Assembly: GCF_902143375.2 (NCBI RefSeq)
Contig: NZ_CABFVA020000116.1
Coordinates: 1-64,000, forward strand
Length of the DNA stretch: 64,000 nucleotides
Source of the DNA: Methylacidimicrobium tartarophylax
GTDB lineage: Bacteria > Verrucomicrobiota > Verrucomicrobiia > Methylacidiphilales > Methylacidiphilaceae
Direction of reading: 5' to 3'
Of this stretch, positions 8,502 to 34,584 are shown in pieces. The position numbers and the translations under genes are program-made. Position 1 is the stretch's first letter. Every line of letters starts with the position of its first letter. The notes beneath the pieces were generated by a model that was given only the letters and a program-made list of their open reading frames with translations, was not told where the DNA came from and searched no databases.

Positions 8502-8582
8502 AGGTTTCCCGGGGCCTTCGCCCGACCTGGGGCGTTGCCTTGCGTCCTTTCCCGACTCCCTCTATGCTGCTCTCTACAATCC

Positions 8583-9545
8583 GTGCACCCGGCTAATCCT
8601 GCCTCTCCCGTTCTCGATCGGATTCACTCCGCCGTAGCAGAGCTTCCCGTCCGGCTTCTCGCCGCGGTTTCCGGAGGGCTCGACTCCTGTGTACTCCTTG
8701 ATTCGCTGGTTCTAGCCGGGAAGAAGCCGATCGTTCTTCACCTGGACCACGGGTGGCGTCCAGAGAGTGGGGAGGATGCGGTCTTCGTCGGGCGGCTTGC
8801 GGCCTCCTACGGGCTTCCTTTCCTGGAAGAAAAGGCCGCCTCGGGCGGATTGGGTTCGGAGGCGATGGCGAGGAAGCGGCGATATGACTTTTTCGCGCGA
8901 GCCGCCCGCTCGGTGGAATGCCGCGATCTCGCCTTGGCCCATCATGCAGGCGATCAAGTGGAAACCCTTCTTCTGCAACTGCTGCGCGGTGCAGGCTCCC
9001 ATGGGCGGGGAATGCGGGAAACCGAAGCGTACGGCAGTCTATGCCTTCGCCGGCCTTTTCTCTGGGTCGAACGGAGCCTGCTTCGGGAGTACGCAAAAGT
9101 TCGCAAACTTTCATGGCGTGAGGATCGCTCGAACCAGGATCGCCGCTACCTTCGAAACCGAGTTCGCCACGAGCTTCTCCCCTATCTGGAGGAGCGCTTT
9201 TCTCCCCATATTCGTCGCTCCTTGCTCCGCTTCTGCCGAGTGAGGGTGGCCGAAGAGGAGTGGATGACCGAGCTTGTCCGTGAAAGGGCCGAGAGAAGCA
9301 GACTCTCGATCGCGGAACTTCAGGACTCTCCCCTGGGCCGGCAGCGGCGGCTGATCCATCTCTGGCTTCGCCGGCGAGGCGTCCCGGACCTTTCCCTGGA
9401 CGACGTCGAGTCGGTCCGGCGGATCGCCCACGGACGGCGCAGCGCCAGCCAGTTCACCCTAGCCGGCGGGTGGAATGCGGTTCGGGAGGATGGGGAGATC
9501 TGTCTGAAGCACCAGCCACTGCCATGCGTCTCAATCAATACTTAG
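8583..9545 (+). CDS. tilS: tRNA(Ile)-lysidine synthase TilS
   Basis: About 320 residues. The ATP-pyrophosphatase P-loop AAVSGGLDS lies near the N-terminus, followed by VLHLDHGWR and the TilS-specific ALAHHAGDQVETLLLQLLRG. NRVRHELLPYL is the tRNA-contact segment typical of TilS. The enzyme converts C34 of tRNA-Ile(CAU) to lysidine so that it reads AUA. GTG 8583 is taken as start because it leaves the usual short lead before the P-loop; TTG 8535 is an alternative. A CAT-anticodon tRNA that could be the substrate is at 39096. Confidence 0.9.
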   Translation: MHPANPASPVLDRIHSAVAELPVRLLAAVSGGLDSCVLLDSLVLAGKKPIVLHLDHGWRPESGEDAVFVGRLAASYGLPFLEEKAASGGLGSEAMARKRRYDFFARAARSVECRDLALAHHAGDQVETLLLQLLRGAGSHGRGMRETEAYGSLCLRRPFLWVERSLLREYAKVRKLSWREDRSNQDRRYLRNRVRHELLPYLEERFSPHIRRSLLRFCRVRVAEEEWMTELVRERAERSRLSIAELQDSPLGRQRRLIHLWLRRRGVPDLSLDDVESVRRIAHGRRSASQFTLAGGWNAVREDGEICLKHQPLPCVSINT

Positions 9546-10264
9546 CCCGCTGCGGCCTCGGATCCCGCAGGGGTGTGGAACCGCTCATCTTCGAAGGCAG
9601 GGTGACGGTCAACGGGCTGGTCCAAAGCGGCCTCGCCGTTCAAGTCGAGGAGGGGGACGCAGTTGCCATTGATGGTCGTCCGGTGCATCCCGCGTCGACC
9701 CTTACGGTTCTTCTCCACAAGCCGAGAGGATTTCTCTGCACCTCCTCCGATCCCCGGGGACGCCAGACCGTTTACGAACTTCTGCCTCCGCGCTGGAGAA
9801 GCCTCCGTTATATCGGCCGTCTCGATCGAGACAGCGAAGGGCTCCTGCTATTCACCAGCGATGGTCTCCTGATCCAACGGCTGGCCCACCCGCGACACAA
9901 AGTTTCGAAGGTCTACGAGGTGGAATGCGATCATCCTTTGGAGGCAACTCGTGTCGCTACCCTTCTCCGCGGATGCCGCATCCAGGGGCGAACGGCCTCC
10001 CTCGACTCCTTCCATCTCCTTGGCTCGCGGCGCGTTCGCGTCGTGGTCCATCAGGGAATGAAGCGTCAAATCCGGCTGATGTTCCAAGGTCTCGGCTATA
10101 AGGTCATTCGGCTTGTCCGCGTGGCTTTAGGCCCGCTCACTCTCGGCTCGCTTGCGGCCGGTCAATACCGGCTCCTTTCCAGAAGCGAGACCGAAGCGCT
10201 TCTGCACGCAGCGGCTCCGTCTTCTCCAGCCGCCCCAGGGAGGCATCGCGCCCGCTCTTTATGA
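9524..10264 (+). CDS. 16S/23S rRNA pseudouridine synthase, RsuA/RluB family
   Basis: About 246 residues. An S4 RNA-binding domain opens the protein (RLNQYLARCGLGSRRGVEPL), followed by the RsuA-type catalytic core with GRLDRDSEGLLLFT; the first Asp is the catalytic nucleophile that isomerises uridine. The C-terminal part holds GMKRQIRLMFQGLGYKVIRL, also family-specific. ATG 9524 overlaps the end of tilS by 22 bases, suggesting coupling. RluB, RluE, RluF and RsuA cannot be told apart from sequence alone here. Confidence 0.88.
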   Translation: MRLNQYLARCGLGSRRGVEPLIFEGRVTVNGLVQSGLAVQVEEGDAVAIDGRPVHPASTLTVLLHKPRGFLCTSSDPRGRQTVYELLPPRWRSLRYIGRLDRDSEGLLLFTSDGLLIQRLAHPRHKVSKVYEVECDHPLEATRVATLLRGCRIQGRTASLDSFHLLGSRRVRVVVHQGMKRQIRLMFQGLGYKVIRLVRVALGPLTLGSLAAGQYRLLSRSETEALLHAAAPSSPAAPGRHRARSL

Positions 10265-11646
10265 ATCCCTCCATTTCGCCTTGGGGAGGCCGTTTCCACG
10301 AAACACCCGATATCCTGTTCCGACGTTTTTCCGAATCGGTCAGCTTCGACCAGCGTCTCTATCGGCACGATATTCTCGGAAGCATCGCTCATGCGACCAT
10401 GTTGCACGAAGCGGGTCTGCTGGGCGCCGAAGAACGCGAAGAGATCGTCCGCGGATTGGAAGCCATTCAAGAAGAGATTGCTAAAGGCGTTTTCCCCTGG
10501 TCGACCGATTGGGAAGATCTCCACATGAATATCGAGCGGGCGCTGATCGCCCGCACTCCGTGCGGAGCAAAGCTGCACACCGGCCGAAGCCGGAACGATC
10601 AGGTCGCCACGGCCCTGCGGCTTTGGGTGAAGGAAGAGATCGATTCCGACAGGGAAGCCATTCGCGCCGTCCAGTCGGCCTTGGTCGATTGGGCGGAGCG
10701 GGACGTCGATGTCCTGATTCCGGGCTACACGCATCTCCAGCGGGCGCAGCCGGTTCTGCTTGCCCACCATCTGCTGGCCTATGTGGAAATGCTTTCCCGC
10801 GATTCCGACCGGCTCCGTGAGGGCCGGAAGCGGGCGGACGTTCTACCCCTTGGGAGCGGAGCGCTCGCCGGGAGCACGCTTCCTCTGGATCGCCATCGGG
10901 TCGCGGAACTTCTCCATTTCTCGCAAGTGGCGCGCAACTCCATGGATGCGGTGAGCGACCGGGACTTCGTGGTGGAATACCTGGCTTCTTTGGCACTGCT
11001 TGGAACGCATCTCTCCCGCTTTGCGGAAGACTTGATTCTCTGGTCGAGCAGCGAGTTTGGACTCGCGTCGCTTCCGGAAGGCTTCACGACGGGATCGAGC
11101 CTGATGCCCCAAAAGAAGAATCCGGATGCACTCGAGCTGGTTCGCGGGAAGACGGGTCGCCTCTCTGGCAATCTTCTTTCGATCCTGATCCTGCTCAAGG
11201 GGCTGCCTCTGACCTACAACCGTGACCTACAGGAGGATAAAGAAGCCCTGTTTGATAGTGCCGACACCGCACTCGGCTGTTTGCGGATCCTGGCGGCACT
11301 GATCCCCGGCGTCGTCGTCCATCGGGACCGGTGCGAGCAGGCCGCTTCCGATCCCATGCTGCTCGCCACGGATCTTGTCGATTGGCTTGTCAATCATGGG
11401 ATGGCTTTTCGGGAGGCCCATCACGCGGTCGGCCGGCTGGTCGCTCTCGCCGAATCGAGGGAAGTCTCCCTTGCCGAGCTTCCCGCCGAAGACGTTGCTC
11501 CTCTGCACCCCAAGCTTCCTAGCGAATGGAACGAGATTTGGAGCCCTCGAGCGGCGATCGAGAGAAGGCAGACGGAGGGTTCTTCCCGCCCTATCTTCGT
11601 GCGAGCCGAGATCGAGCGGTGGCGAAGAGAGCTGCGCTCGGCATAG
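10261..11646 (+). CDS. argH: Argininosuccinate lyase
   Basis: 461 residues, full length. It begins WGGRFHETPD, carries AKLHTGRSRNDQVATALRLW in the N-terminal third, and has the fumarase/aspartase superfamily signature GSSLMPQKKNPD with the mobile catalytic Ser loop. It cleaves argininosuccinate to arginine and fumarate, the last step of arginine synthesis; arginine then feeds SpeA at the other end of the window. The start overlaps the preceding stop (ATGA). Confidence 0.96.
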   Translation: MNPSISPWGGRFHETPDILFRRFSESVSFDQRLYRHDILGSIAHATMLHEAGLLGAEEREEIVRGLEAIQEEIAKGVFPWSTDWEDLHMNIERALIARTPCGAKLHTGRSRNDQVATALRLWVKEEIDSDREAIRAVQSALVDWAERDVDVLIPGYTHLQRAQPVLLAHHLLAYVEMLSRDSDRLREGRKRADVLPLGSGALAGSTLPLDRHRVAELLHFSQVARNSMDAVSDRDFVVEYLASLALLGTHLSRFAEDLILWSSSEFGLASLPEGFTTGSSLMPQKKNPDALELVRGKTGRLSGNLLSILILLKGLPLTYNRDLQEDKEALFDSADTALGCLRILAALIPGVVVHRDRCEQAASDPMLLATDLVDWLVNHGMAFREAHHAVGRLVALAESREVSLAELPAEDVAPLHPKLPSEWNEIWSPRAAIERRQTEGSSRPIFVRAEIERWRRELRSA

Positions 11647-25392: not shown

Positions 25393-25486
25393 TCCGCATG
25401 CGTCCATTCATTCCCGGCTCGACATTTTTCTTGGTGGAGTGGGCCATGTTCGCCAAAGTTATTCGAATCTGTCTGCATTTGCGCCT

Positions 25487-27232
25487 ATGAGCTGGCGCTC
25501 TCCTTCCTGGTTCATCCTTGGACTTCCGCTCCTGGCTGCTGCGGCGATTCTCCTCCGGCGCTCGAGAGAGAACTCCCCGATGCGGAGACCCTTCCTCTGT
25601 CTGATTCCGACAGACGGGCGCTGGATGATCCGCGCCGGCACAAGCGGTCTCCATCGCCGCCCCTGGTTTTTTTTTCTGGCCGGCTTTTTGGCCATCTTAG
25701 CGTTGGCAGGCCCCCAATGGGGGAAAAGCTCGCGGCAGCTGCTTCGTCCGTCCACCGACCTAGTCATCGCCTTGGATCTCTCCCGGAGCATGACCGCGCA
25801 GGATCTGGCCCCCTCTCGGCTCGATCGGGCCAAGTTGCTGATTCGCGCCTTTCTCCAGGAAGCCGCGGGACAACGGATTGGCCTCCTCGTCTTCTCCAAC
25901 TCAGCTCAGCTTGCGGTGCCCCTGACCACGGATTACGGCGCTCTCGAGGAGCTATTGGCCGAGCTCACTCCTGCCAGCCTTCCCGAGGCGGGAACCGATT
26001 TCGGCGCTCTCCTGGACGAGACATTCGATACTTTTTCCCAGAGGGATTCCGCTCATCGGATTCTTCTCATTCTTAGCGATGGCGAAGATCACGGAAGCGG
26101 ATGGAAGGAAAGAGTTCCTCGGCTGGTGAGGATGGGCGTCCGCATCTGCGCGATCGGCCTTGGCACGGATCGGGGAGGGTTGGTTCCGGATCCGCGAGGG
26201 GGATTCCTCAAGACCGACGGAGGACATCCGGTTCTCTCGCATCTGCAGCCGGAAGCCTTGCGCGCCTTGGCGTCGGCAACCGGCGGGCGATATTTTCGGG
26301 GGGACCGGTGGGTGACCTTGGCGGAGATCCTTGAGGTGGATTCCGCCGCCAATGCAACTCGATTGGAGCAGATTGCAGGTCAGGCGGAACGTTTCACCTA
26401 TTTCCTCCTTCCCGCCGTTCTCTGCTGGTGTGTAAGCCTTCTTTGGGAACTGCCGGCCTTCCGCTCCTCCCCCAAAACCCCCGTTTCGTCTCGTCCCCTT
26501 GCCACAGGCTCGAAGGTTCCCCTTCTGCTGCTTTTCGGACTGGGGGGGCTGTTCTCCGCGGTCTCTTTCTCCCATGCGAAATCGGATGCGGCTTCGGCTT
26601 CCGCCGGCGAAGGAAAGGATGCGCTGATCCCCTGCGTTCAGGCTCTTGCTCGAAAAGATCAACTCTTTGCGTCCGATTACGGCACGCTGGCTCAGGAGAC
26701 GATTTCTTGGTGCCGAAATCGGCAGGAGTCCGGCTTATCCGCCGGGGTGATTCAGGATGGGCTGGTTGCCGTCGACCGAGGCGAGCGGCTGGATCCCCGC
26801 CTTCTTCCCTGGAAGCAGTTGCGCAAGGAGCTTGAGGGCTTCCTCAAAGCGAGCCGCCCCCCGGACGCTCCCTTGGAAGACTCCCATTCGTCTTCTCAGC
26901 ATCAAGGCTCGTCCTCCGGTCCCCCCTCCCGGTTCCGATCGGCGGCGGGCGCTCGCCCGCAACCGTCGGGAAGCGGGCAGCGGCAACGCTCTTCTCCTGG
27001 ATCTCCCGAGGGGAAGGCTCCGGCTTCGCCTTCCCCGTCTTTGTCGGATTCCTCGAAGCAGAAGGATGGCGCGGATTCGCATGCGGGGCAGTCGTCTCCG
27101 GAAGGGCGGAATGGAACCAAGGCGCGCTTGCGTCAGGTGGAGCGTTTAGATCGCCCAGCCCTCCTCTTCGAGCGGATGCGGCAAAAGGAGGCAGAACAGG
27201 CGGATGTCCCGCCCGAACCAATGGATTGGTGA
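25487..27232 (+). CDS. Bat-type von Willebrand factor A protein with TPR-like tail
   Basis: 581 residues. A membrane helix (about 8-25) and a second (about 62-80) precede a VWA domain whose MIDAS is intact (VIALDLSRSMTAQD, DxSxS; later ILSDGEDHG). Helices near 315-330 and 350-370 follow. The C-terminal 200 residues resemble BatC-type TPR segments and end in Ser/Pro/Gln-rich low-complexity sequence. In Bacteroides aerotolerance operons BatA/BatB/BatC occupy separate genes; here one gene seems to combine roles. Its TGA overlaps the GTG start of the next gene. No moxR or DUF58 gene is adjacent. Confidence 0.82.
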   Translation: MSWRSPSWFILGLPLLAAAAILLRRSRENSPMRRPFLCLIPTDGRWMIRAGTSGLHRRPWFFFLAGFLAILALAGPQWGKSSRQLLRPSTDLVIALDLSRSMTAQDLAPSRLDRAKLLIRAFLQEAAGQRIGLLVFSNSAQLAVPLTTDYGALEELLAELTPASLPEAGTDFGALLDETFDTFSQRDSAHRILLILSDGEDHGSGWKERVPRLVRMGVRICAIGLGTDRGGLVPDPRGGFLKTDGGHPVLSHLQPEALRALASATGGRYFRGDRWVTLAEILEVDSAANATRLEQIAGQAERFTYFLLPAVLCWCVSLLWELPAFRSSPKTPVSSRPLATGSKVPLLLLFGLGGLFSAVSFSHAKSDAASASAGEGKDALIPCVQALARKDQLFASDYGTLAQETISWCRNRQESGLSAGVIQDGLVAVDRGERLDPRLLPWKQLRKELEGFLKASRPPDAPLEDSHSSSQHQGSSSGPPSRFRSAAGARPQPSGSGQRQRSSPGSPEGKAPASPSPSLSDSSKQKDGADSHAGQSSPEGRNGTKARLRQVERLDRPALLFERMRQKEAEQADVPPEPMDW

Positions 27233-29793
27233 AGGTGAAACGCTTTTTGGCTCTGCTTTTCTTGGCTGCTTGCTTTCCTTCTGCTCTTCTCCACGCCCAG
27301 AGCGCTCATTGGCTTCCTCTGGAAAGCAGCGCAATCCTCGGTTTGCCTTATCGAGTGGAGCTGGTCGTCGAAGGCGGAATTCCGCGGACGGATCCCGAGC
27401 TTCCCCCGATCCCTTATGTCGAGACCAGTTCTGCAAAGAGGGAGCCTTCCGCCAATTCCGGGAACGCGAGAAGCCCTTCCGTTGCGTATGTCTACACCCT
27501 CCGCCTGCTTCGATCCGGCCCTCATGCGATTCCCGGATTTTCCTTGGCTACGGATCATGGCATCGCCTCCGTTCCGGCATTCACGTTTTGGGTCGGCGAG
27601 CCGTCCTTTTCTCCTTCCTTTACCTCGTCGGCAGATGCTTCGCTGACTCTTTTCCGCGATGAAGTCTGGCAGGGGGAGCCCTTCCCCGTGGAGTATCGGC
27701 TTCTGGCCCATGCCGGCGCTTTTCTAGAGATTACCGGACAGCCGGAATGGACGCCCGCAGATCTGCTGGTCGACCGCTGGAGCCGCCCGGAAAGAGTCAG
27801 CGGGGAGTGGCGCGGAGCTTTCTTCAGCGGCCTTCGCTACTCTGCGCTCGCGATCGCCCTGAATCCGGGAAAGATCTCCCTTCCTCCCGTCAGCCAACAT
27901 GTGAGCATGGAGACGAGCAAGTTCGGGCAAGGCCTTTTTTCGCAAGCCGTCATTCGTCCGCTGGTGCTTCACTCCGCGGCGCTTGCCCTGTCCGTGAGGC
28001 CATTGCCGGCACCAGCCAAGGACGGTTTCAGCCAGGCCGTGGGCACATTCGGCCTGACCAGCCAGATTTCTCCTTCGGATACGCAAGTGGGGGAACCCGC
28101 CACATGGACGCTTCGAATCGAGGGGACGGGCAACTGGACAACCCCTTGGAATCTCCTACCCCCGGAGATTCCAAGCGGCCTGCGCGTCATCGAGCCGGCA
28201 CCGCAACAGCAGAGCGATCCGGATTCCCTCTTTTGCGGCTCTTTGAAGGTCGAACGCATCTTGGTTGCCGAACGGCCGGGCCGGTATCTGATCCCTCCTT
28301 ATCGCTTCACCTACTTCGACCCTCTAGCCGGCATCTACCGGACGGCTCTGGCCCCCTCCACGGTCCTGACTGTAAATCCTCGCTCTTCTCCCGTCGGTTC
28401 TCTCTCCGATCATTCTTCCTCCGGCCGACCAATGCCCCTTCCTGCGGAAGCGGCTGCTCCCAAAAAGCGGTTGCCGCAAGCCCCGCTTTCCGGCTCTGCC
28501 CGTGGCCTCGTCCCGCTGGAGAACCGCTGGCTTCTTGCCGGAGCAGGCGGTGCCGGCGTGGTGCTTCTTGCCCTTTGGCTCATTCTGGCGCGAGGGCATG
28601 CGTGCCTGACGGATCCCTTGCAACGCAGACGAGCCGGATTGCGCCGCCTCCGCCGGATTCATCGAGAGATCCGCCATTCGGGCTCGGAAGGGGAGCGGCA
28701 GCAACAACTGTTTCGCTGGCAATCGGCGATTCGGGATGCCTGGCTCGTCGGCCCTGTCACACCGGAACTGGCGGAGCTTCAGGCTGCTCTGGAACGGGCT
28801 CAGGTCGACCAGGCAGCCTTCCAGACTTGGACCGCTCTCTGGCGGGAGGCAGAAGTTCATCTCTACGCGCGAGAGGTGAGTCTTCCTGCGGATTGGGTGG
28901 AACGATCCGAGGAACAGGCACGCCGCATTTCCATTCCGCGACCGTCGTGGAGAAAGACCTTCGCCCTTCCTCACTTCTTTCCCGTCTTGACGATCTTAGG
29001 CTTGCTCCTCTCTTCGTCCTGGGGCCTCAATGCCTTGGATCTCTATCGCTCAGGCCGATTTACAGAGTCCGGGTGCCTGTGGGAGAGGAGCTTGCGGAGG
29101 TCTCCCACTGACTGGATCGCGCGCAGCAACTATGGCGCGGCACTCTCCCAGGAAGGGCGTTGGCCGGAGGCGCTCGCCCAATGGTCTTCCGCCTTCCTGC
29201 TCGCTCCCCGAGACTCGGCTGTCCGCTGGAACTTCGCGCTCGCAATCTCCCAGTGTCCCGGCGTCGATGCGCGGCTCTCTGCCTTGACGAACGGGCCACT
29301 CTGGTTCCGCTGGATCGCCGTCGGCTCCCCTGCGGAATGGCAGATCCTTCTTGCGGGCGGTCTCTTGGATCTTTTCCTCTGTGCGCTCCTCCTGCTCCTC
29401 TCGCGCTACCGCTTGGCTCAACTGGCCCCCTCGCTGCGTAAGGCCCTGCTTGCGCTCGGCCTGGGCGTCTCCGGGATCGCTGCAACCGCGGTAATCCTCT
29501 ACGGTCCGATGGCGGATCCTCGGGCTGGTCTCGCGACCGAAGGGGCGCTTCTTCGATCCATGCCAACAGATGCCCAGCAGCAGAACAGTCCGCTCCTCGC
29601 CCCAACCCTGGTGGTCGTCGGCAAGCCGTTCCTCCATTGGGTCCAGGCATGCCTTTCGGATTCACGATCGGGGTGGCTGCGCGCGGAGACGATCGTCCCC
29701 TTTTTTCGCCCCCCATACGTCCCGCGTCCGTCCGCTGTTTCTTCCACGACTGCCGACGCAGAGACAGCGCTTCCCTCGGCTTCTGGTCCATAG
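27229..29793 (+). CDS. BatD-BatE-like fusion: oxygen-tolerance domain, TPR and SH3
   Basis: About 854 residues. A signal peptide (1-24) leads a long BatD-like exported region of Ig-like domains (about 30-390; for example LFRDEVWQGEPFPVEYRLLA, FGLTSQISPSDTQVGEPATW). A membrane helix near 440 is followed by cytoplasmic-looking DUF4381-like sequence, another helix near 580, TPR-like repeats (NYGAALSQEGRWPEALAQWS), two more helices and a C-terminal SH3-like segment (ATEGALLRSMPT...GWLRAETIV). This matches BatD joined to BatE. GTG 27229 overlaps the preceding stop. Its role is probably envelope quality control together with the VWA protein. Confidence 0.75.
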   Translation: MKVKRFLALLFLAACFPSALLHAQSAHWLPLESSAILGLPYRVELVVEGGIPRTDPELPPIPYVETSSAKREPSANSGNARSPSVAYVYTLRLLRSGPHAIPGFSLATDHGIASVPAFTFWVGEPSFSPSFTSSADASLTLFRDEVWQGEPFPVEYRLLAHAGAFLEITGQPEWTPADLLVDRWSRPERVSGEWRGAFFSGLRYSALAIALNPGKISLPPVSQHVSMETSKFGQGLFSQAVIRPLVLHSAALALSVRPLPAPAKDGFSQAVGTFGLTSQISPSDTQVGEPATWTLRIEGTGNWTTPWNLLPPEIPSGLRVIEPAPQQQSDPDSLFCGSLKVERILVAERPGRYLIPPYRFTYFDPLAGIYRTALAPSTVLTVNPRSSPVGSLSDHSSSGRPMPLPAEAAAPKKRLPQAPLSGSARGLVPLENRWLLAGAGGAGVVLLALWLILARGHACLTDPLQRRRAGLRRLRRIHREIRHSGSEGERQQQLFRWQSAIRDAWLVGPVTPELAELQAALERAQVDQAAFQTWTALWREAEVHLYAREVSLPADWVERSEEQARRISIPRPSWRKTFALPHFFPVLTILGLLLSSSWGLNALDLYRSGRFTESGCLWERSLRRSPTDWIARSNYGAALSQEGRWPEALAQWSSAFLLAPRDSAVRWNFALAISQCPGVDARLSALTNGPLWFRWIAVGSPAEWQILLAGGLLDLFLCALLLLLSRYRLAQLAPSLRKALLALGLGVSGIAATAVILYGPMADPRAGLATEGALLRSMPTDAQQQNSPLLAPTLVVVGKPFLHWVQACLSDSRSGWLRAETIVPFFRPPYVPRPSAVSSTTADAETALPSASGP

Positions 29794-31047: not shown

Positions 31048-31899
31048 ATGCGACCCGTAGGCCTGGGCGGCAAGCTTTGTGTCGGCGCCCTAGCAATCCT
31101 TCTCTCGAGCTGTGTCACCCAGACGAACTACAAGCCGACGACTCTCGTGAGAGTCAGCGTACACGACCAGGCTCTTGAAGTCGTCAAGAACGGAACTTCG
31201 ACACACCGTTTCCCCGTTTCCACCTCTCGGTTCGGCTTAGGGGACGAGACGAACAGCTTTCGAACGCCGCTGGGCCGATTCGTCGTCCAGAGTAAGATTG
31301 GCGACGGCGTCCCGTTGGGGGGCAAGTTCTACCATCGGCAGTATACCGGGGAACGGGTCGACCTGGAACATGGATCGGCGTGCGGCCACGACAGCCTGCT
31401 GACTCGGATCCTCTGGCTGCGCGGCTTGGAAGAGAGTAATCGCAACGCCTATAGCCGGGGAATCTACATTCACGGCACCAACCAGGAAGCCCTGATCGGC
31501 CAGCCCGCAAGCTATGGTTGCATCCGCATGCGGAATCGGGACGTCCTTGCTCTTTACGATATCGTGCCGCAAGGGAGCCTGGTCGTCATCCAGCTCGATC
31601 CGCTTTCTCCGGCGCCCCGCGCTGTCGCCGCGGCCGCAGTGAGGAGGCCGGCCACTTCCAGCCCACAATCCCGAGCGACCCCTGATCCTGCCCCGGTTCC
31701 TCCGAAAGCGCTCCCGGTCCAGGCCAGCCCGGCCCCGCGCCCTTCTTCTCCTCCCACGTCCCGGCGACCGGCCGTTTCCTCCCCACACGCTCCAAGCCGC
31801 ACGGTCGCCCACCACGCCCGAGGTCGACGGCATCCTCACCGGCCTCATGCCCTCCGAGGCAAGCATCTTGCCAAGGCCTCCCCTCGCAAAACCGGGTAG
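31048..31899 (+). CDS. L,D-transpeptidase (YkuD) lipoprotein
   Basis: 283 residues. A lipoprotein signal ends LLSSC, with acyl-Cys22. The YkuD catalytic domain (about 30-195) contains IYIHGT with His142 and SYGCIRM with the nucleophile Cys158. Such enzymes make 3-3 peptidoglycan cross-links or attach proteins to the wall. The last 90 residues are a Pro/Ala/Arg/His-rich, very basic tail (PSRTVAHHARGRRHPHRPHA), which may contact the wall. It may be cotranscribed with the small basic protein that follows about 135 bases later. Confidence 0.88.
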   Translation: MRPVGLGGKLCVGALAILLSSCVTQTNYKPTTLVRVSVHDQALEVVKNGTSTHRFPVSTSRFGLGDETNSFRTPLGRFVVQSKIGDGVPLGGKFYHRQYTGERVDLEHGSACGHDSLLTRILWLRGLEESNRNAYSRGIYIHGTNQEALIGQPASYGCIRMRNRDVLALYDIVPQGSLVVIQLDPLSPAPRAVAAAAVRRPATSSPQSRATPDPAPVPPKALPVQASPAPRPSSPPTSRRPAVSSPHAPSRTVAHHARGRRHPHRPHALRGKHLAKASPRKTG

Positions 31900-32033
31900 G
31901 CGTTTTCTTGCCGGCACCTTGCCGGCCCGCGGTAGATTCCCCGGGAAAGCTCTTCCTTCAATCGGTTTTTTCGTGACAAACGCTCTCCTCTTTGCGATGA
32001 AGCCATCCTCAAACTTCCTACAGGGAGAAGTGC

Positions 32034-32186
32034 ATGTCGCAACATCGGAGTCTTCGCAGAGGTATGCTACTCACAGCAAAGAGGAATGTGCTGAAACGCT
32101 TTGAGCGGATCGCGCTTCTCAAAAAGCGGGGGCGATGGAAAGAAGGGATGCGCCTCTTCGGTCTTCCGAAGACCCGACCATTGTAA
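32034..32186 (+). CDS. Small basic protein of the Chlamydiae/Verrucomicrobia family
   Basis: 50 residues, roughly one third Arg or Lys: it begins MSQHRSLRRGMLLTAKRNVL, continues KRFERIALLKKRGRWKEGM and ends LFGLPKTRPL. This is the pattern I recall as a small basic family confined to Chlamydiae and Verrucomicrobia, thought to be ribosome-associated. A strong AGGGAGAAG ribosome-binding site sits at 32022-32030, three bases before the ATG. A stem-loop follows. The gene is easily missed because of its length, and it is the best lineage marker in the window. Confidence 0.85.
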   Translation: MSQHRSLRRGMLLTAKRNVLKRFERIALLKKRGRWKEGMRLFGLPKTRPL

Positions 32187-32199
32187 GTGACTTGGGATA

Positions 32200-32224
32200 A
32201 GAGGCTGTTGAGGGATAAGCCTCT
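32200..32224 (+). terminator. Stem-loop after the small basic protein gene
   Basis: AGAGGCT at 32200-32206 pairs with AGCCTCT at 32218-32224 around an 11-base loop, 14 bases after the stop. There is no T-run, so it may be a processing or weak termination site. Confidence 0.35.
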
Positions 32225-32300: not shown

Positions 32301-33278
32301 TCAGGGCTCCCTTGGGAGCGGAAACGCTTTGGGAGGAAGCCAGAGGTAATGGGCGAGCGGACGGTCGACGAATTCAAGCGAGGCGTGGGGGACGGACAGA
32401 AACTGCCCCGGACTACGCTTGAGGGCAAGGCCGGAGTTTCTTTCCTTCTCTGGAGGAGAAGCCAGGAGAAGAATCCTCCGAGGGAGCGGCAGTCGCCAAG
32501 CCACATGTTCCGGTAAGCCCAGGCCGAAGCGCAGATGACCCGCGCCGCAAACGACCAGGGCACGATCCTCTTTTCGTCCCCTCCCGTGCAGAGCCCGCAC
32601 GATGCGCTGGGCCATCCATTCGTCACGGACTTCTTGCGCTTCCGCGGCCTGACGGAGCCACGTGCGCCCCATTCCCGGATGGATCGGCAAGAAAAGTTGG
32701 AGCAGGCGCTGGTACATTGGATCAAACTGAACGTGATCCAAGCGCAAGCGCGTCCGTTCGGCGGTCGGAACCGATTGCCACCCTAGCCGGGCGATCCGGC
32801 GAAAAAGGGGGGCAGGGCCGTCGAGGCCAAAGATCCGAATCCGTCTTTCGCGGGCCAAAAGGCAGAGGCCCCGATAGTCCTGATAGTTGCTCCATCTCGC
32901 GGACCAGTGAATGGCTCGGGCGAATTCTTCAAAGGAAAGTTCGCCGGCCAGGAAGCGGGAGACCCACGGTTCATCCTCTGATTCCAGGGCCTCAAGAAAA
33001 AGGGAGAGCGGATCTTCTCCGGTGCCGAGCAAGGAGAGGAGTTGTGCTTCGAGCCGGTGGTGGGAGCGGGCGGTGTGCATCTCCCCAAGGTAGATGATGC
33101 GAACTCTCCGCAGGTCGGAAAGGAGAGCCGTTTGTGAAATCGGCTCTCCGGCCAGGAGATCGATCCAGCCTTGGCTGTGCGCTCCGCAGCCGGAAAAGAG
33201 AAAGGAGAGCGCAAGGATGACGACCGCTTCTCGAATCAGACCCAGACGGGCGATCTTCCCACGAATGCTTCCGCTCAA
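32301..33278 (-). CDS. ChaN-like lipoprotein (haem-binding uptake family)
   Basis: 325 residues. A lipoprotein signal LLFSGC (here FLFSGCGAH) places an acyl-Cys near residue 31. The ChaN core starts VRIIYLGEMHTARSHHRLEAQLL, containing the Glu/His pair typical of the family, and continues LFLEALESEDEPWVSRFLAGELSF-like segments in shorter blocks. Members bind heme or act in iron uptake; they resemble the erythromycin-esterase/TraB-like fold. It is translationally coupled (four-base overlap) to the unknown gene upstream. Confidence 0.75.
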   Translation of the reverse strand: MSGSIRGKIARLGLIREAVVILALSFLFSGCGAHSQGWIDLLAGEPISQTALLSDLRRVRIIYLGEMHTARSHHRLEAQLLSLLGTGEDPLSLFLEALESEDEPWVSRFLAGELSFEEFARAIHWSARWSNYQDYRGLCLLARERRIRIFGLDGPAPLFRRIARLGWQSVPTAERTRLRLDHVQFDPMYQRLLQLFLPIHPGMGRTWLRQAAEAQEVRDEWMAQRIVRALHGRGRKEDRALVVCGAGHLRFGLGLPEHVAWRLPLPRRILLLASPPEKERNSGLALKRSPGQFLSVPHASLEFVDRPLAHYLWLPPKAFPLPREP

Positions 33279-34420
33279 GAGGACGAATGCGATCCTTCTT
33301 CCGGTGCGGAAAGGCGCTGCGTTCGGATTGCGGCGATCCGCTCCGTAGTCCGAAAGGGATCGCCAAGCTGGCAGACGAAGCGTTCCGCGTCATCTAGCAA
33401 GCTGTCGGAAAACGCGCGCCACTCCCATTTGAGTAAGAGAACCAATAATCGGCGTATGCCGAAAAGAGCGAGAGAATCTCCCGAGAGGCCGGCCTGGGCG
33501 GCAGCCAATCCTTCGGAGAGAGATCCCATTCCAAACAGGACCAAAAGAATCAGGTAGGCAATCGCTCCGTATCCCCGCTGCGTCTGAAGCCGCTGGCAGA
33601 GGGCTGCCCGGAAAGAGGCCCGCTCTTCTTCGGTGCTTAGGCGCGAGTAGAGGCCGAGCAGGGCCTCCGCGTTGGGGGAGACGACCTGTTGACTGGGCAA
33701 CTGGCCGGGCTCTCGATCCTTCGAAACCGCGCCGGCTTCTCCATTCTCGCGAGGTGCCGAAACCGTGCCGAGCTGCCCAGGCCCCCGCGTGCGAAGCTCG
33801 ACCAGCTCAAATTGCAGCACCGATGCTACATTCTTTTCCGTCGGGTCCGAAATTTGAAATCCGGGTTCCTGCGGGAGCTCGATCTCACCGAAGACCGTCG
33901 CCAGGGGGCGAAGAACCAGATGAACGGGAACGGAGAGCTTCCCCTCGCTTCGGAGAGAAAAAGCCACCCAGAAGTCGGTGGATGCCGTCGGCGGCGGACC
34001 CGGGATGCCGATCTCCAAGGAAAGGTCGAGGGCTCCTTGGGGCGGAACCTCGATGTCTCGGTTGGCTGGTTCTTGCGGGGAGAGGATCGAGCGATAGCAG
34101 AGATCGGTCCCGGCCAGAGAGGAAATCAGCCGAACATCGAGCAGGCGAAAGGGTTTTCGCGTGTGGTTGAGAAGCGAGCCGGCCGCGCAAAGATAGGAGA
34201 ACTCCCTTCTTTTCGGGAAGAGCGCGACCCACCAGCAGTGGTCTTTTTTCCATTGTACCTCGACGCCGGACCGTGCGGTCAGAGGGTAGAGTCGGTAGAC
34301 CCAATCTCGGGCCGAATGGGAGGCCATGCCGAGGGTTTCCGGGGAGATCCACTTGTCGATCCATGCGAACGGATCGGATGGAGCGGGCTTTTCCGGTGGC
34401 GCCGATTGGGAATCAGCCAT
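33275..34420 (-). CDS. Unknown protein, coupled to the ChaN-like gene
   Basis: About 381 residues from ATG 34420 (MADSQSAPPEKPAPSDPF). Not recognised. The middle has beta-rich segments (EVQWKKDHCWWVALFPKR; LDLSLEIGIPGP), then a Gly/Glu-rich hinge (about 225-255), then helices (LGLYSRLSTEEERASFRAAL; GYGAIAYLILLVLFGMGSL). Without a signal peptide it is probably cytoplasmic or peripheral. Four-base overlap with the ChaN-like gene suggests a shared operon; no function is assigned. Confidence 0.6.
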   Translation of the reverse strand: MADSQSAPPEKPAPSDPFAWIDKWISPETLGMASHSARDWVYRLYPLTARSGVEVQWKKDHCWWVALFPKRREFSYLCAAGSLLNHTRKPFRLLDVRLISSLAGTDLCYRSILSPQEPANRDIEVPPQGALDLSLEIGIPGPPPTASTDFWVAFSLRSEGKLSVPVHLVLRPLATVFGEIELPQEPGFQISDPTEKNVASVLQFELVELRTRGPGQLGTVSAPRENGEAGAVSKDREPGQLPSQQVVSPNAEALLGLYSRLSTEEERASFRAALCQRLQTQRGYGAIAYLILLVLFGMGSLSEGLAAAQAGLSGDSLALFGIRRLLVLLLKWEWRAFSDSLLDDAERFVCQLGDPFRTTERIAAIRTQRLSAPEEGSHSSS

Positions 34421-34584
34421 GACTAGAATGTCTATCCGATCGGCACGCCACTGTCGAGAGCGGTGCAGGCTCACTCCGGGGATCGGAAGCCTGAGCCGAT
34501 GGCGCCGTTGTTGCTTGTGCTAATGACGGGTTCGCATACGATGCAGAGACGGGGCAACAGCCTCAATGAGGTATAGAATCGGGT

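Follow-up and report, generated by a model that had tools for sequence, protein, structure and literature searches.

A small basic protein gene (TIGR04137) nearly universal in three PVC phyla, and its plausible link to the ribosome

Is the 50-codon open reading frame (ORF) behind an L,D-transpeptidase gene of Methylacidimicrobium tartarophylax a real gene, and if so, what does its product do there? The analyzed stretch comprises 64,000 nt of contig NZ_CABFVA020000116.1 (hereafter the window), in which the ORF occupies positions 32034–32186 of the forward strand, from an ATG start to a TAA end (stop included). Its 50-aa product, MSQHRSLRRGMLLTAKRNVLKRFERIALLKKRGRWKEGMRLFGLPKTRPL, has a computed pI of 12.0 and a net charge of about +13.6. 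The NCBIfam model TIGR04137 (Chlam_Ver_rRNA, 'small basic protein') matches positions 1–49 of 50 with 87.7 bits, 37 bits above its curated cut-off of 50 bits, and the E-value of 3.3e-25 places this match beyond chance. The hit is full-length, the protein has the same length as the model, and the gene is present as a single copy in its own genome; we found no difference from the family other than a range exceeding that implied by the model's name. The first-pass annotation had called a 50-residue basic gene here and named this family, and the ORF, the profile match and the pI all agree with it. Among seven species of the same genus, pS greatly exceeds pN in nearly all pairs (typically 0.3–0.6 versus 0.04–0.11; in one example pair, 0.576 versus 0.063), the closest pair having too few changes for the comparison, and the gene is thus under purifying selection within the genus. 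The ORF is a genuine, conserved gene: that a mere 50 codons in GC-rich DNA abounding in spurious ORFs form a chance or non-coding frame is a negligible prospect against the curated-family match and the synonymous excess.

To place the gene in its phylogenetic context, we searched genomes of Verrucomicrobiota, Planctomycetota, Lentisphaerae, Kiritimatiellota and Omnitrophota together with 14 controls. Planctomycete query sequences served as bait only, and all conclusions are drawn from the genomic sequences retrieved. TIGR04137 matched 143 of 145 Verrucomicrobiota genomes, 94 of 98 genomes from the phylum of one planctomycete and 46 of 48 from the phylum of one Omnitrophus, almost always once per genome, as well as all 30 nearest relatives; none of the 14 controls gave a match. 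The family is therefore nearly universal and single-copy in three PVC phyla. A collection scan revealed further carriers in Kuenenia, Scalindua, Lentisphaerae, Kiritimatiellaeota and Tritonobacter. No carrier was found among the viral contigs scanned, and carriage by phages was rejected. Eight genomes yielded no match, and a broader profile retrieved no convincing homologue from them. The protein may consequently not be strictly essential, although draft gaps could account for these absences, and some of the eight may indeed be assembly gaps. The initial description of a lineage marker of Chlamydiae and Verrucomicrobia thus stands as to the marker and widens as to the range, which also takes in Planctomycetota, Lentisphaerae, Kiritimatiellota and Omnitrophota.

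This distribution recalls a protein that is already described in the literature. Judging by range, size and clade, we infer that MSQHRSLRRGMLLTAKRNVLKRFERIALLKKRGRWKEGMRLFGLPKTRPL belongs to the CT421.2 family, already described as the PVC signature protein. Gupta et al. 2012 (PMC3444138) describe its chlamydial member, CT421.2 of Chlamydia trachomatis. As early as 2008, a reviewer comment in PMC2474590 expected the signature protein in Methylacidiphilum. The signature protein is also the subject of Lagkouvardos et al. 2014 (AEM 80:440), as cited in passages of PMC5041132 and PMC7203096. The TIGR04137 protein and the published one are alike in being PVC-only, about 50 aa long in Verrucomicrobia and longer in planctomycetes, with many invariant positions. 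Against a published core of about 53 aa (over 80 aa in planctomycetes) the protein has 50 aa here, and all five sampled PVC groups were positive versus 0 of 14 controls. Planctomycete loci mostly encode about 53–120 aa with Lys/Ala-rich tails, and such tails are mostly added in Omnitrophota as well. The protein is one of very few markers common to nearly all of the superphylum to which Chlamydia belongs. That its function is not established, as stated at the outset, holds for the published signature protein too. What we add is its linkage to rluB, an explanation of its odd neighbour, a conserved promoter-like element and a direct check of uL30 absence.

We then considered which properties of the chain are conserved. 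Among 55 diverse PVC sequences, seven positions never vary (R17, V19, L20, R22, E24, R25 and K46) and three more hardly do (S6, L7 and L44). The core net charge varies from +2 to +14 among family members; since it falls as low as +2 in some, charge alone is not the conserved property, and the very high charge is a trait of the window's genus and not of the family. The seven invariant residues suggest a specific contact instead of mere bulk charge. An AlphaFold2 model of MSQHRSLRRGMLLTAKRNVLKRFERIALLKKRGRWKEGMRLFGLPKTRPL (mean pLDDT 72, pTM 0.42) predicts a confident helix at 22–32, a short helical turn at 8–11 and extended conserved loops, with zero strands and no hydrophobic core. Foldseek returned nine matches to this model, every one with an E-value over 5, the best being histone and other DNA-binding chains. 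Searches of PDB chains for relatives gave only repeat-protein artefacts, and no solved structure contains the chain. A likeness to the N-terminal half of uS14 was rejected, the profile search of PDB chains, many ribosomal proteins included, being empty. Several small ribosomal proteins lack a hydrophobic core. With bL34, bL36 and bTHX, the protein shares its size, charge and core-less chain, whereas no sequence relation to them was found.

Gene neighbourhoods pointed in the direction of rRNA modification. In the phylum as a whole, the TIGR04137 gene most often adjoins a gene for an rRNA pseudouridine synthase: an RluB-type gene lies directly 3' of it at 27 loci (some within the same genome) that cover at least 13 families, with gaps of 7–82 nt at ten of those loci for which a start codon could be assigned. 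This order occurs in at least 13 other verrucomicrobial families and in Kiritimatiellaeota and Tritonobacter loci. At several of these loci, argH comes next after rluB. In the window, the order tilS-rluB-argH (8535–11646) occurs without the small gene; the RluB-type gene (S4 and PseudoU_synth_2 domains; 9470–10264, plus strand) is followed by argH (10261–11646, plus strand), and both are located 22 kb upstream of the TIGR04137 gene. Within this cluster, the tilS and rluB ORFs overlap, the GTG of rluB at 9470 lying inside tilS, which ends at 9545. Order-mates carry the TIGR04137 gene before rluB, and on the simplest reading the two would have parted in the ancestor of the genus or family. Other phyla show other neighbours, namely an aminotransferase and AcpS in planctomycetes, NifU in Lentisphaerae and GNAT in Omnitrophota, which means that no single operon defines the family. 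Genes that we take, by eye from their sequences, to be Era, TruA and RNase PH adjoin it in one case each. In sister genera, a bactofilin-domain gene is found 5' of the TIGR04137 gene; there and in one related family, a zinc-ribbon-like protein with a bactofilin domain (locus L007, bases about 610–1440) is encoded directly 5'.

Based on its near-universal single-copy occurrence, its invariant residues, the recurrent link to rRNA modification and its core-less basic chain, we lean, with moderate confidence, towards a lineage-specific rRNA-binding ribosomal protein or late assembly factor. On this reading, the chain would be mostly unstructured before binding, and the invariant R-x-V-L-x-R-x-E-R helix together with the conserved L-P-K loop would hold a specific rRNA site, in the manner of other core-less small ribosomal proteins. 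The purifying selection within the genus, the single cases beside Era, TruA and RNase PH, and the absence of uL30 described below point the same way. Several observations speak against this: neighbours vary by phylum and no ribosomal-protein gene was seen adjoining the TIGR04137 gene in the loci examined, eight genomes are without a convincing match, and the chain is absent from solved structures. The first-pass annotation had regarded the protein as probably ribosome-linked; such a link is plausible in view of the rluB neighbour, the single copy and the basicity, while ribosome binding itself stays a prediction. If the protein is indeed ribosomal, the PVC ribosome would have a composition unlike that of all model ribosomes, and the rluB neighbour together with the checked uL30 absence makes this reading directly testable.

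A possible, though distinctly less probable, alternative is that the protein does housekeeping work by binding nucleic acids in general, much like a nucleoid protein or an RNA chaperone, and has no set place on the ribosome. Gel shifts in the 2014 study of the signature protein reportedly showed unspecific binding of DNA and RNA, which fits a general binder and counts against a ribosomal or assembly role; the small size, the pI reached in this genus and the identity of the best, non-significant Foldseek matches are in keeping with a general binder as well. Such a protein would, however, hardly be expected to keep seven strictly invariant residues, one of them a glutamate, to tolerate a core charge of +2 in some members, or to recur beside an rRNA-modifying enzyme.

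PMC7203096, citing Lagkouvardos et al. 2014, reports that an RNA-binding protein whose fold is L30-like might substitute for uL30. Following this proposal, we also considered a special case of the ribosomal reading in which the protein replaces uL30 in PVC bacteria and occupies its position on the large subunit or one close by. None of the 33 PVC genomes tested has uL30; 13 of the 14 controls do. In the genome of M. tartarophylax, the usual slot of uL30 is closed, with only 8 nt between the uS5 stop (1489) and the uL15 start (1498) at locus L165 of contig C73, and no uL30-like frame was seen at the uS5-uL15 junction in one Omnitrophota, one Lentisphaerae-type and one planctomycete genome. These findings are compatible with substitution by the TIGR04137 protein, which, like uL30, is small and basic. 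A single shared loss, however, constitutes one evolutionary event and not a correlation. Synechococcus elongatus, the sole control without uL30, also lacks TIGR04137, so losing uL30 does not require having this protein, and TIGR04137-negative genomes are devoid of uL30 too. Homology to uL30 was rejected, as MSQHRSLRRGMLLTAKRNVLKRFERIALLKKRGRWKEGMRLFGLPKTRPL and 54 relatives showed no Pfam match to PF00327. The uL30 fold is alpha/beta with a three-stranded sheet; the AlphaFold2 model, at mean pLDDT 72 and pTM 0.42, has helices and no strands and appears unlike it. We therefore consider replacement of uL30 unlikely, and equally doubtful that the PVC ancestor gained a ribosomal protein of this family upon losing uL30; if it did, the PVC ribosome itself would bear the defining innovation of the superphylum.

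Why, then, does the gene lie behind an L,D-transpeptidase? The upstream neighbour (YkuD Pfam domain; 31048–31899, plus strand, outside the feature) is separated from it by 134 nt on the same strand, and this pairing is kept in all seven genus members, which could indicate that the two proteins act together in the cell wall. In every other genus examined, no such transpeptidase adjoins the TIGR04137 gene. The neighbour is thus a genus-level rearrangement, silent on function, and the location noted as puzzling in the first-pass annotation is real but ceases to be a puzzle. The partnership was rejected on this ground and is highly improbable, given also a family near-universal in PVC, a product without an apparent signal peptide or membrane segment, and a conserved promoter-like element between the two genes.

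This element (31966–32001, plus strand), 3' of the transpeptidase stop, comprises a T-run (31966–31971), a –35-like GTGACA (31973–31978), a 17-nt spacer and an extended –10-like TGC-GATGAA (31993–32001). TTTT-N-CGTGACA followed by TGC-N-A is invariant in seven of seven genus members, in an intergenic region that has otherwise mostly diverged, and nowhere else in the genome is the combination found. A simple sigma-70 scan did not call the element, which we infer from its conservation to be the putative promoter of the TIGR04137 gene itself. Further downstream, a Shine-Dalgarno AGGGAG (32022–32027, plus strand) is read directly 6 nt before the ATG, its GG invariant across the seven genus members; the site is good but ordinary, and not, as first stated, strong. 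Past the stop, a 7-bp stem is present as previously noted (32200–32224, plus strand; arms 32200–32206 and 32218–32224), but it folds no better than shuffled sequence (z = 0.12; 101 of 200 shuffles equally good) and for this reason carries no weight in our argument. It has no U-tract, the terminator scan was negative and Rfam gave no match for the region, and its roles as a terminator or regulatory RNA were rejected.

Elsewhere in the window, a 399-aa ORF without a Pfam match (33275–34474, minus strand) has a ChaN/Tiki-type gene on one side and an AcrB-type RND transporter on the other, and the genes for a VWA-domain protein and then a BatD-domain protein (25439–29793) make up a Bat-type aerotolerance-like operon.
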